A stretch of 64,000 nt of DNA, from the NCBI RefSeq assembly GCF_000264995.1, contig NW_006767433.1, positions 1,396,876 through 1,460,875 on the forward strand. Reading direction: 5' to 3'. The notes under the pieces are model-generated. The model saw nothing but the letters and a program-made list of their open reading frames with translations, made no database searches and was not told the origin of the DNA. This document shows positions 44,651 to 50,863 of this stretch, in pieces. This DNA comes from Punctularia strigosozonata HHB-11173 SS5 (taxonomy: Eukaryota > Basidiomycota > Agaricomycetes > Corticiales > Punctulariaceae). Position 1 is the first letter of the stretch. Every line of letters starts with the position of its first letter. The position numbers and the translations under genes were made by a program.

Positions 44651-45340
44651 TCATGATGAAGTGCCTTTCGAGCCCTCCTTCGAAACCCAGTCAAGCCATG
44701 AACCGGAATAGTTTCTCAAGCTGTGTCTGCAGTCAACAATACCGTACGACACATCATTGAGCGCAACGTACTTAGTATAACCATTACGCTTGGCGACATC
44801 TGCCGCACTAGCGCTCCGTTTCCCGCTCCTACAATAGAAGGTGACCTCCTGTTTGGTGCCAGGCTTGTTGAATCCAAAGCGCTCCTTGAAGGTTGCCTTG
44901 TCGAGCGCCAGTGCACTAGCAAGGCTAGAAAGTGGTAGGTTGACGGCAGAGGGTATGGATCCTTGACGGACTTCGTCCGGTTCCCGTACGTCAATGAGAT
45001 ACGCGTCCTGACAGAATTGTTCAGTACAGACGGAACACGCCGGGTTAAGAGCACGTACAATTCGAGGAGACTCGCTCATCGCTTTGACTTCTTCATAAGT
45101 CACGACGGATGCAGTCCAGTCCTTCTGCAATTCATCGCGGGCGTCGAGGGCCGCTTTCCTGGCTGCCTTTGCCGCCTTTGCCGCTGCGTCTGCAGTTCCT
45201 GAAGCTGGTGATTGTGTCGAGTTCCAGCGAGCAGTCTGCACGATCCGAGGAGCAATGGCTGTAGCTATGGGTCTAGCGGCGAGCATCCTTGACGCCCTGA
45301 ACGCGCCGCGGGCAGACTGTAGCGTAGCAGATAACGACAT
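44651..45340 (-). CDS. Mitochondrial single-domain rhodanese
   Basis: Thiosulfate sulfurtransferase-type domain. Exons 45059-45340 and 45007-44651 give 212 aa. Residues 1-40 are Arg/Ala/Ser-rich with no acids, a good presequence. The rhodanese domain has YLIDVREPDEV and the active-site loop CRSGKRS with nucleophile Cys153, then SGSWLDW at the end. The intron 45008-45058 is 51 nt and stop-free, so both spliced and unspliced forms are open; the spliced form restores the usual ...I-DAYLIDVRE. A stretch before the final SGSWLDW is longer than usual and might hide another intron that I could not place. Confidence 0.85.
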   Translation of the reverse strand: MSLSATLQSARGAFRASRMLAARPIATAIAPRIVQTARWNSTQSPASGTADAAAKAAKAARKAALDARDELQKDWTASVVTYEEVKAMSESPRIVRALNPACSVCTEQFCQDAYLIDVREPDEVRQGSIPSAVNLPLSSLASALALDKATFKERFGFNKPGTKQEVTFYCRSGKRSASAADVAKRNGYTKYVALNDVSYGIVDCRHSLRNYSGSWLDWVSKEGSKGTSS

Positions 45341-46474
45341 AGTGCAGATGTTCCCAACGTTCCTTTCGTCGAAGCAGGTGGATGAGCAATCCCCAGCAAA
45401 GCACGCAAGACTGAGAAATATACTTGCTCTGGAAACGAATTCCGATGATGACGACCAAATCAAGTCACGTGAGTGAGATGGTGGGAGACTATGAGGTGAG
45501 CATGAGCGGGATTCGCCATTGGTCAGATGTGGGTTGCGGCATTTCCGCGCGCTCGTCCGTTCCTCCTCACGACACCCATCGTCCGACCGCATCCACTGCT
45601 GCTTTCTTCGCTCTGCATTGAGTCTGGGGCTGCTAAGGACGGAAAAGAGCTTTAACAGAGGCTGGGCGGGAGCGTTCTGCTCAACAAGCCCAACCATTGC
45701 GCTTTTCGCTCGGCGACGTCACGGACGACCCCCTGGGCTGCCGGGAACACGAGAAGACAGTGGCGAAGAAGATCCTCAAACTATGGTCCTTGCGACTTTT
45801 CTCTGCAGGCAATGGATGCTACGTTCATGATTCTCGAAAGGACTACACGATCCACACCCATCTCGTCGCTTCTTTCCGCGTCATATGACTCTCGATGACC
45901 ACCAGTTGCGGTGAAGAGACTCTGCCCGATCCAGTGAGAGCGTAGTTCTCGGAATCTGGGTTCTGTGGCGCATTGCCCTGCTTGCCTCGAGACCTAGCGG
46001 GAATCTTATTTACACATACCAATCTCTGGTCATAGCGGTCTGGTATCTGTCCCGAGCGCTTTCTCTCACACGCTACGATTTTCTACGAGATGACGACCAA
46101 ATATCTCTTTCTTTCCATGAAGTACCCGATCACCAGTACAACCCGCGATCAACCTCTGGATTTTCACTCCATACATCATACACATCCTTGCGGTGCGTGG
46201 AGCTTATGCGGACCGAGGGCACGATTGTTGGCTGCCGTAGGTAAGCGTGATTATACACAACCGTGTTTTATGCACACGAAACTCGAAATCCTCGTTTCTC
46301 AACATTTCGTCTCCCTTCAACCCGCTCGCAAAGTGACTGGGGCCGAGTCTGCCGGGCCGCTCTCGGATGTTTAACCTTGTTTGGTTGGCTTCCCCGCCAC
46401 TTGGGAACTGACCGTGATCGCGGTTCCCCAACTCGTTCCCAGCAGCCCCTCCACCTCCACTTATCGTATACACC
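45341..46474. other. Divergent promoter region, rhodanese / CTR
   Basis: 1.13 kb with no gene recognised. The rhodanese frame stays open upstream of its Met to about 45697 but lacks a better start. No TTTGCTC-type copper element was seen close to the CTR start. Confidence 0.45.
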
Positions 46475-47102
46475 ATGGACAGGACTACGTCGACCGACAA
46501 TACGACCGTTACGGTCGCGATGATGACGCCCTTCTTACACTTCACAAGTGGAGACGCGCTGTTCTTCAAGGCGTGGACGCCATCGTCAGCTGGCGCCCTC
46601 GCCGGAGCGTCCATTGGATTGTTTTTCCTTGCCGTGTTCGAGCGCTGGCTTGCTGCGATGCGAGGTGTTCTGGCCATTCACTGGCACAAGAGGTCTGCGG
46701 TATCTTCTCACATGAATCCGTTGAGGTTCTGACTCCTGTCGATAGAGCCCTCCAAATGATGTCCGAGTCAACTGGCCCATCGCAGCCATCTGGTAACGAA
46801 GGAGCGCCGAAGGGCAATGAATCGTCCTCCTCACTGTCGAGGAAAGGACGTGCTCGTCGCGCTCCAGCTTTCATTGCTTCGCACGACTTGCCTCGCGGAG
46901 CTATTTTCGCTGTGCAGGCGCTCGTGGGCTATCTCCTTATGCTGGCAGTCATGTAGGCTCCCCGCACTTTTGATGCACCGGCCGACGTTGACAGCGTTGC
47001 ATACGCAGGACCTTCCAAGCTGCCTACATTATCTGCATCATCGCGGGTTCTGGCGCTGGCGAGATGGCCTTTGGCCGGTGGGGCACGGGCAATGGCCATT
47101 AG
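46475..47102 (+). CDS. CTR-family copper transporter
   Basis: Trimeric high-affinity Cu(I) permease. Three exons, 46475-46692, 46746-46952 and 47009-47102, give 172 aa. Three membrane spans: about residues 38-58, 122-141 and 145-162. The CTR hallmarks are present: MLAVM (MxxxM) in span 2 and GSGAG (GxxxG) in span 3. The N terminus is short with few Met (MMTPFLHFTSGD), closer to CTR2-like members. The loop between spans 1 and 2 is long, Ser-rich and basic. It lies 466 bp before the BIM1-like gene on the same strand, which supports a copper-uptake role. Confidence 0.92.
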
Positions 47103-47567
47103 GGGTTACCTCGTTCGCACAATGTATCACCATCTTCATCGTAGTGTAGTTGCTGCTATGCGCTGTACTTCCCTCCTTGTCCGTCCAGCTAAGCGTAACG
47201 ATCAGAACACGACATGTGGCATCAAGGAAGTAGTCCGTTCTTGCGCCGTGGCGCCGTGGACCAGTCCGCTACATCCGAGAGTTCGTGCCTATCTTTGCTC
47301 TCCTGCGAACTGGCTTTGGGAGGAGAAGTCAGGAACGTGCTTGAAACTGCTATTCGTAGCGTCCGACGGGCGGCACCCCGTAAGATACGGCTTAGCGACG
47401 ACCGGCATGACCAGTAAACATAGCCAAAGGAAGGTGAAAAACTTTTTCGCCGGGAAAGTGCCCGCTTCCGGTGCTGGTGTGGCGGATGATAAAAGCTTCC
47501 CTTCTCCGGGATAGACCTCCACTGAAGCTCCTCGACGACGCTTTCCAAGCTCTTTACGACTATAATC
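47103..47567. other. Promoter region of the BIM1-like gene
   Basis: 465 bp between the CTR stop and the BIM1-like start, with no gene seen. It includes one TTTGCTC heptamer, listed separately. Confidence 0.5.
47294..47300 (+). promoter_or_regulatory. Possible copper-response element TTTGCTC
   Basis: TTTGCTC is the core bound by yeast Mac1 in promoters of copper-uptake genes. It occurs once here, 268 bp upstream of the BIM1-like start. A seven-base match is expected by chance about once per 16 kb per strand, so this rests mainly on context. Confidence 0.25.
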
Positions 47568-48413
47568 ATGCGCTTCGCTACCCTCGCCGCTATCGCCAGC
47601 CTGTTCGCTGCCGCGAATGCGCACTTCCAGCTTCAGTTCCCCACTCCTCGTGGGCCTTTTGTTGAGGACGATGAGCCTCACTTCTGCGGTAAGCGTGTTC
47701 CGAGTTAATACAGACACACGATTGATTCGTTGGGCTTGTAGATGGCTACACTGACGCTGTCAGCAACCGCAGCACCTTCCCGCTGACTGGCGGGTTTATT
47801 TCGTTGAACAGCGAGCACCCGAAGTGGACGAGTGAGGTTTCTCCCTAAAGACTGCTTTACTTGCGCCTGACAGCAGTTCACAGTTGGCGTCTTGATCTCG
47901 ACTGTTCAAAACCCTAACTCGTTCGACAACTTCACAACGGCAAACAACCAGAGCCAGTTCGTCGTTCCTTTCCAGCAGAAAAACGGCGAGGGCCTGTTCT
48001 GCCTCGGCCCCATCGACATCGGAAACCTCGGTATCTCCGGTGTCAATGACGGCGCGAACGTTACCCTCGAGTTTGTCTTCGACGGCGGTGACGGCGATCT
48101 GTACCAGGTTTGCATCGATCACCTACGTCGTCGTATGCGCTGATACTCACATGCACAACTATCTCGTCCATAGTGCGCCGACCTAACTCTCTCGAGCAAC
48201 TTCACGGTGCCCTCCGGTACTGCCGGCAGCTGCTCTAATGTCACCGTGACCGAGGCATCGTCATCCGCGGGGGCGACAGCGACCTCTCCGTCTGGCTCCG
48301 CAAGCGGGTCCGCAGCCTCGTCAACGCAGACGGCCAGCAGCGCCGATACGCTCAGGATATCGGGCTTTACTGCGTTCCTTTTCGCCGCAGGAGGCGTACT
48401 TGCTGCGCTCTGA
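47568..48413 (+). CDS. BIM1/X325 copper-acquisition protein, LPMO-like, GPI type
   Basis: Four exons, 47568-47688, 47742-47831, 47884-48107 and 48174-48413, give 224 aa. An 18-residue signal peptide ends ANA, leaving His19 as the mature N terminus ([13 protein letters not shown]), the first ligand of a histidine-brace copper site. [20 protein letters not shown] and [10 protein letters not shown] fit the X325 family; the His in SEHPKW is a candidate second ligand. A Ser/Ala/Thr-rich stalk and a hydrophobic tail ([17 protein letters not shown]) indicate a GPI anchor. Family members such as Cryptococcus Bim1 bind copper and help CTR import rather than cut polysaccharide. The exon 3 acceptor has nearby alternatives. 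Confidence 0.88.
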
Positions 48414-49547: not shown

Positions 49548-50863
49548 CTATGCAGCCTTCTCGATGACGCTGGATGCCCTCGATGCATACCCGGTCCAAG
49601 ACTATTCACAATCCGTCAGCAATCGTGGTGAGTGGATGTACAATGACATACCTCATCGTACAGGGCGATTTTAGGAACCTCGAGAAGCTTCAAGCCGAGC
49701 CACAGCACTCCGGCCGTCATACCGCTGCCGCAAGTTGTGACGACGCGCCGCTCGCCTTGCTTGACCTGCCGCCCAAACTCAGGGCCCAGGACATCCAATA
49801 GCTCTTTTTCAAGCTCGGCAGGTGACTTGAATGTGGTGTACTTCTCATCCGAGTTCGAAATGTCGTTCGATTGGAGGAATGCGTTGAATGGTAGAGAGAA
49901 GGAGTTCGGAATATGCCCAGAAGACATGCCGGATCGTGGTTCAGGATCCGTACCTAGCCAGCTACCCAAGGAAAAGTCAGAAATGCAACCCGAAGCTGCA
50001 TCGGGTCGTGCTTACCGACCACGAGACCGAGCGTCCAATACCAGCTCAGCTTCAGGACTCGCGGTGGGCTGTCGCTCCGAGTTCGCGACAATATCCTCAT
50101 AACCTGCACAGGGATGAAGCGTGCCTCGTCGCACCACCTCAGTCGCGACTTACCCCGGACAACATGCTCGTCCAATGTTGGCGTCGGGTACGCAGTCTTT
50201 TCTGGGGTCTTGATAGGGCCGGATTCGGTATCATAGCCAGCGACTATCCAGGCAGGCAGACCACCGTTCAGGACGGATGAGTTCGCATGCCCAAATGCCC
50301 TGAACTGTTTCACCAAGAACCGTGTTGACAAGCAGCACGGCATTGCAATTGTAGGTGGCGCCTCACCATGTATAGAGCGCGTGGAGAGGAGAAAACGCCA
50401 TGTGTATCATAACTGCAATTAAGGAATGTCATGGAAGAAACCAGCGACGAGGGAACTACGAACATAACTACCCGGGAAGAGGGCTCAATGCCGAACTCCT
50501 CTGTCGTAGTTTAAGCGATGTCGGGCTCATGACAATGAAGAACGAACATGACATACCGCACGCATCTGCGAATACGCGAGGAGCGGGCAGCATATGTTTT
50601 AATCCAAGCTCATGTTTGCTAGCCACGGCGTCCAGGTCCAAGAACTGAGCGCCAGGGATTCTCTTTGCAAGGAGTTCCTCTTTCGGTTTGCGAGGAGATC
50701 CTGGCATGAACCAGCTCGCGTCCAGCACCTTGGCGCCCGAGTTCTCAAGCTCCTTCAGCTCATGAGGGCTCACGAGAAGAGGAGCAGTAGACATGGCTCG
50801 GGTAGAATGATAGGACAGGGACGATAGCGATCGTCCAGCGAATTTCAGGCCGCGTACAAGCAT
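49548..50863 (-). CDS. TUM1: 3-mercaptopyruvate/thiosulfate sulfurtransferase
   Basis: Two-rhodanese-domain enzyme; in yeast TUM1 passes sulfur toward tRNA thiolation. Seven exons: 50557-50863, 50464-50500, 50367-50412, 50154-50304, 50016-50103, 49652-49961 and 49548-49601; 330 aa. Domain 1 has VLDASWFMPG and VVIYDTHGVFSSPR; domain 2 has LVLDARSRGRWLGTDPEPR and the active loop TTCGSGMTA. CGSG(V/M)T is the mercaptopyruvate type rather than CRKGVT of thiosulfate enzymes. The first 25 residues (MLVRGLKFAGRSLSSLSYHS) look like a mitochondrial presequence, with an in-frame Met right after it that could give a cytosolic form. Divergent from VMA5, 83 bp apart. Confidence 0.93.

Follow-up and report, generated by a model that had tools for sequence, protein, structure and literature searches.

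The window analysed here, a stretch of 64,000 nucleotides from Punctularia strigosozonata HHB-11173 SS5 (contig NW_006767433.1), contains two genes in tandem on the forward strand, one encoding a permease of the CTR family and the next encoding a protein of the X325/BIM1-like family. The CTR gene starts with the ATG at 46475, stops with the TAG at 47102 and encodes, in three exons, a spliced protein of 172 amino acids; the X325 gene runs from the ATG at 47568 to the TGA at 48413 and encodes, in four exons and with intron 2 corrected, 224 amino acids. The strand, starts and stops given for both genes in a preliminary description made from the sequence hold, whereas the gap between them, given there as 466 bp, extends from 47103 to 47567 and is 465 bp long. 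The features of the locus, in window coordinates, are the following.

46475–46692, + strand: CTR exon 1, encoding TM1 and, ahead of it, a short N terminus that contains a single MM pair
46746–46952, + strand: CTR exon 2, encoding the cytosolic loop and the greater part of TM2, MxxxM included (splice choice from the paralogue alignment)
47009–47102, + strand: CTR exon 3, encoding the end of TM2 and TM3 with GxxxG, then the stop codon
47103–47567, no strand assigned: gap, the putative X325 promoter, with one TTTGCTC at 47294–47300 (-274)
47568–47688, + strand: X325/BIM1-like exon 1, encoding the signal peptide, which ends in AANA, followed by the mature start HFQLQFP, whose His is His1 of the brace
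47742–47831, + strand: X325 exon 2, with SEHPKWT close to its end (the second His, at position 48 of the mature protein)
47884–48107, + strand: X325 exon 3, encoding the core domain, in which Asp 108 lies in DGAN and Asp 122 in GGDG
48174–48413, + strand: X325 exon 4, encoding the last Cys, a Ser/Thr-rich stalk and a hydrophobic GPI-like tail (read by eye), then the stop codon

The two gene products

The start codon of the CTR gene lies in a Kozak-like context (CACCATGG). The spliced protein matches the Pfam Ctr profile (PF04145) over positions 3–151 of 151, with an E-value of 1.4e-34 and 120.2 bits against a cut-off of 25.3, so that the assignment of a CTR permease to 46475–47102 on the forward strand is borne out, as are the two motifs previously attributed to it: MxxxM is present as MLAVM in TM2 and GxxxG as GSGAG in TM3. 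Residues 120–164 additionally align with the CTR1 chimera structure 6M97, although the match is weak (E = 5.6e-4). In a 19-residue hydropathy scan, the protein gives two peaks, TM2 and TM3 being merged by the peak filter; the third predicted membrane span is implied by the full-length Pfam match. The first splice site, GTCTGC, is not a strong one, and we accepted it because a paralogous CTR encoded on another contig (C12) aligns unbroken across the junction (HWHKRALQMM/HWRMRAQIAL).

The X325 protein matches PF20238 with an E-value of 7.9e-27 and 94.9 bits against a curated cut-off of 27, and the structure of Laetisaria arvalis LaX325 (PDB 6IBH; further entries 6IBI and 6IBJ) with 1.3e-34 and 122.9 bits; the absence of an X325 domain from 47568–48413, named at the outset as what would refute the pair, was thus looked for by profile search and the domain was found. 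The two domains are 41% identical, as computed on an older splice model, and share His1, the second His (position 48, against 49 in LaX325), both candidate Asp residues and four Cys. In Bim1 of Cryptococcus, the Asp copper ligand is described as sitting on a Gly-rich loop (PMC7529816). The cleavage site of the signal peptide, between AANA and His, was read from the sequence by motif, and the His at the mature N terminus, noticed before any search, aligns with His1 of 6IBH. The tail consists of a stretch with 47% Ser/Thr (mature residues 158–195 of the older model) and then a hydrophobic run, both recognized by eye, and in this resembles a GPI signal.

Alternative donors compete at intron 2 of the X325 gene, where the acceptor reads CAGCAG. 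In the model used here, this intron spans 47832–47883, with the canonical donor GTGAGG at 47832 and the acceptor ending at 47883, and this donor gives the best-scoring protein. The first model, with the donor at 47837 and four more residues, reached 89.3 compared with 94.9 bits against PF20238 and 116 compared with 122.9 bits against 6IBH, and was dropped. NCBIfam, a prokaryote library, returned no matches for either the X325 protein or the C12 CTR.

Genomic setting of the pair

The searched genome comprises 33,569,446 bases in 32 contigs and contains three CTR genes, detected through six exon matches, all the spliced proteins of which score above the cut-off: the window gene, the one on C12 and a third on C3. 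Sequence identity with the window CTR is 42% for the C12 protein and 20% for the C3 protein, the latter presumably resembling yeast Ctr2. An outer N terminus rich in Met is common, if not universal, among CTR permeases. The window protein has three Met among its first 50 residues, with neither an MxM-type cluster nor a signal peptide; the C3 protein has four; and the C12 protein has six, including those of the Met cluster MDMSMDGAM, along with a signal peptide recognizable by eye. Hence, in this one comparison within one genome, X325 adjoins the CTR whose outer arm is the barest. The C12 gene (about 99.1–100.0 kb of its contig; locus L011, 1–800, - strand, together with the end of L010) reads SIAGA/HSNGMDMSMDGAM at the end of its signal peptide, such that the mature protein would start with His, a feature that we consider unusual among CTRs.

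No second X325 gene was found in the genome with the PF20238 profile (one match, the window gene), with the window protein as the query (four matches, its own exons) or with LaX325 as the query (two matches, both in the window gene), and the resulting count of one is a lower bound given that an exon-by-exon search can miss divergent copies split by introns. Two X325 DNA patterns hit the genome four times (one mismatch allowed) and twice, with the window gene contributing one hit to each, compared with five and two hits for control patterns read backward; none of the remaining four hits is X325, as judged from the three frames of the matched strand. Within about 9–10 kb on either side of the C12 and C3 CTR genes (one locus only in part), a two-sequence profile (with the older X325 splice model) run over loci L008–L011 detected no X325-like sequence, the best E-value, 2.8, being noise. 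Pattern scans of viral and genome contig collections yielded 120 and 85 matches, with no relative among them.

The physical CTR–X325 gene pair is real. On the assumption of 9,000–13,000 genes, the probability that a single X325 gene immediately adjoins any of the three CTR genes, on either side, is 4.6e-4 to 6.7e-4, or about 5 in 10,000. The pair had been picked by eye; we nevertheless regard the value as real, if moderate, evidence because the two families were already known to work together.

Copper-response motifs show no clear signal. The single TTTGCTC upstream of X325 compares with about 0.08 expected from the window rate of 0.172 per kb and is accompanied by one element of the S. pombe type (GCTG). 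The 1 kb upstream of the CTR gene contains no TTTGCTC and two TGCTCA, against 0.7 expected, both beyond -790. Because four motifs were tried on four upstream regions, we count the TTTGCTC upstream of X325 as a lead only. Across the window, both motifs occur at the chance level, TTTGCTC 11 times (8.2 expected; a count of 11 is attained in 18 of 100 shuffles) and the S. pombe-type element 67 times against 58.9 (16 of 100 shuffles). The upstream regions of the two genes have no more words in common than 200 random stretches do and show no clear enrichment of shared copper motifs, the patterns used being those of ascomycetes, which may differ from the motif of this fungus.

The nameable neighbours of the pair are a rhodanese gene (44654–45718, - strand), a G-patch gene, a carnitine acyltransferase gene and KH-domain exons; four of the 10 neighbouring open reading frames scanned have no family. 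No metalloreductase was found among these 10 (including the four without a family), and at least seven matches to PF08030 (NAD_binding_6) in the genome all lie outside the window. Two copper-fist regulator genes are on the same contig as the pair, more than 0.5 Mb away. The rhodanese gene lies to the left of the pair, and on its right, exons at about 49619–50406 (- strand) look by eye like a second sulfurtransferase, although a Pfam scan of two pieces of these exons gave no matches.

A putative copper uptake route and its alternatives

The pair probably constitutes a route for high-affinity copper uptake, with one half encoded by each gene. The product of the X325 gene would be secreted and held by a GPI anchor at the plasma membrane or the cell wall, where its N-terminal His, the second His and an Asp, all conserved, would chelate Cu(II) and thereby concentrate copper beside the CTR trimer; the copper would then be released, reduced to Cu(I) and, as expected for the CTR family, pass through the pore with its rings of MxxxM. 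The tandem placement may keep the partners together and perhaps allows their co-expression in low copper. In favour of this route are the two family matches, both far above their cut-offs, and the position of the sole X325 gene found, next to one of the three CTR genes. Counting against it are the developmental and cell-wall roles reported for X325 proteins elsewhere and the lack of a clear copper-motif signal. The preliminary description had the genes as a physical and functional pair: the physical part stands, on the families and the adjacency, and the two products probably act together in taking up copper, judging from the reported interaction of the Cryptococcus proteins and from the adjacency and co-induction reported in Aspergillus (both described below).

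The window CTR is without the signal peptide and the Met cluster of its C12 paralogue, and the X325 protein may therefore supply the outer copper site that this CTR does not have. Extended further, the comparison would suggest a split importer, in which the CTR gave up its signal peptide and Met arm and X325 became a detachable loading arm, within an old BIM1–CTR module whose linked CTRs are poor in Met; we offer this extension tentatively, as a possibility that we do not favour. If it holds, BIM1–CTR linkage should have been kept or rebuilt in distant groups including Ascomycota, and the CTRs linked to X325 should be the Met-poor ones.

It is unlikely that the adjacency is accidental and that the two genes work separately, with X325 acting in the cell wall, in fusion or in fruiting. 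Such independence would fit the ordinary character of the nameable neighbours and the lack of a clear motif common to both genes; in Isaria, X325 relatives have been tied to conidiation and the formation of coremia (PMC9695133), and in Cryptococcus to cell-wall chitin and chitosan (PMC9258870). It is countered by the low probability, about 5e-4, of a position beside any of three CTR genes and by the comparable A. fumigatus pair, reported to be adjacent and co-induced.

We find it more improbable still that the window CTR works internally, exporting copper from vacuolar stores, so that X325 could not hand copper to it directly. The missing signal peptide and Met-rich N terminus are what such a protein might show, yet the window CTR is much closer to the C12 protein (42%), which has both a signal peptide and a Met cluster, than to the C3 protein (only 20%), the one that we assume to be Ctr2-like. 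An X325 protein acting as an LPMO or another redox enzyme, with the CTR supplying copper for its maturation, is very hard to credit despite its LPMO-like His brace, given that the candidate Asp ligands are kept and that polysaccharide cleavage is reported as undetected for several X325 members (PMC7924993) and for Bim1 on cellulose (PMC7529816).

Comparison with known fungal systems

The proposed uptake route has counterparts in other fungi. In Cryptococcus neoformans, Cbi1/Bim1 (CNAG_02775) and Ctr1 represent the same two families as the Punctularia pair, a GPI-anchored His-brace protein and a CTR permease. To our knowledge, these partners work together without known gene linkage, and linkage is therefore not needed for function. 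Cbi1/Bim1 is reported to be GPI-anchored, strongly induced by copper limitation and capable of binding copper through a His brace, and its interaction with Ctr1 is both physical and genetic (PMC9258870); the cited portion of that paper does not mention linkage of the two genes, whereas those of Punctularia are in tandem, 465 bp apart. Cu(II) binding by Bim1 has been modelled with the His brace and an Asp, and the purified protein is described as not redox active and as releasing copper with H2O2 (PMC7529816).

CTR genes clustered with a gene for a copper-handling surface protein, with Mac1 sites, are described in Fusarium oxysporum, namely, ctr3/fre9 and fre12/ctr1b (PMC11563359). The partner in those pairs is a metalloreductase and the arrangement is divergent, unlike the tandem arrangement with a BIM1-like partner in Punctularia.

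In Aspergillus fumigatus, a three-gene neighbourhood of this kind was described in a 2008 study by Sugui and others. According to the cited part of that study (PMC2481287), Afu6g02800 (a GPI-anchored protein), Afu6g02810 (a copper transporter) and Afu6g02820 (a metalloreductase) are adjacent on chromosome 6 and, in hyphae, more highly expressed with normal than with CGD neutrophils (log2 values of 11, 8 and 3); deletion of all three causes menadione sensitivity and leaves growth in low iron, tolerance of peroxide and survival in the presence of neutrophils unchanged. This menadione sensitivity, reported before BIM1 was described, may reflect a defect in copper supply.

AFUA_6G02800 is given as the match of P. 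destructans VC83_07867 (PMC5810475), which is the Bim1-like protein BLP3, upregulated under copper withholding (PMC12113139); Afu6g02800 therefore belongs to the BIM1-like family. A one-to-one match with BLP3 is complicated by a later listing (PMC13208438), in which the A. fumigatus homologues are XP_747797 for BLP2 and XP_077660942 for BLP3; the CTR1a row has XP_747796 (the columns are displaced), and the metalloreductase VC83_03096 is paired with XP_747795. We infer that XP_747795–747797 correspond to Afu6g02800–02820, in which case the BIM1-like genes of A. fumigatus would number at least two. In P. destructans, BLP2 and the metalloreductase have the consecutive locus tags VC83_03095 and VC83_03096. 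Afu6g02810 is reported to fall upon addition of copper, and Afu6g02820 to be among the metalloreductases that are more upregulated in the wild type than in the aceA mutant (PMC8425704), behaviour that counts against a simple shared copper regulon.

No description of a BIM1–CTR gene module was found in the literature passages searched, which do not extend to the two papers (Nat Chem Biol 2020) that founded the field. The A. fumigatus cluster resembles the Punctularia pair in that a BIM1-like GPI gene adjoins a CTR gene (ctrA2, Afu6g02810), with which it is co-induced, and differs in its third member, a metalloreductase, none of which was found in the Punctularia window. The suggestion that linkage would mark a module dedicated to this lineage thus has the reported Aspergillus linkage against it, and the latter points to a BIM1–CTR linkage that would be older or repeatedly formed. 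For Punctularia, the pair names the likely partner of X325 among three CTRs and provides a simple system to test. The Aspergillus linkage was published in 2008, when the family had yet to be recognized, and suggests that gene neighbourhood can pair X325 proteins with CTRs across fungi.
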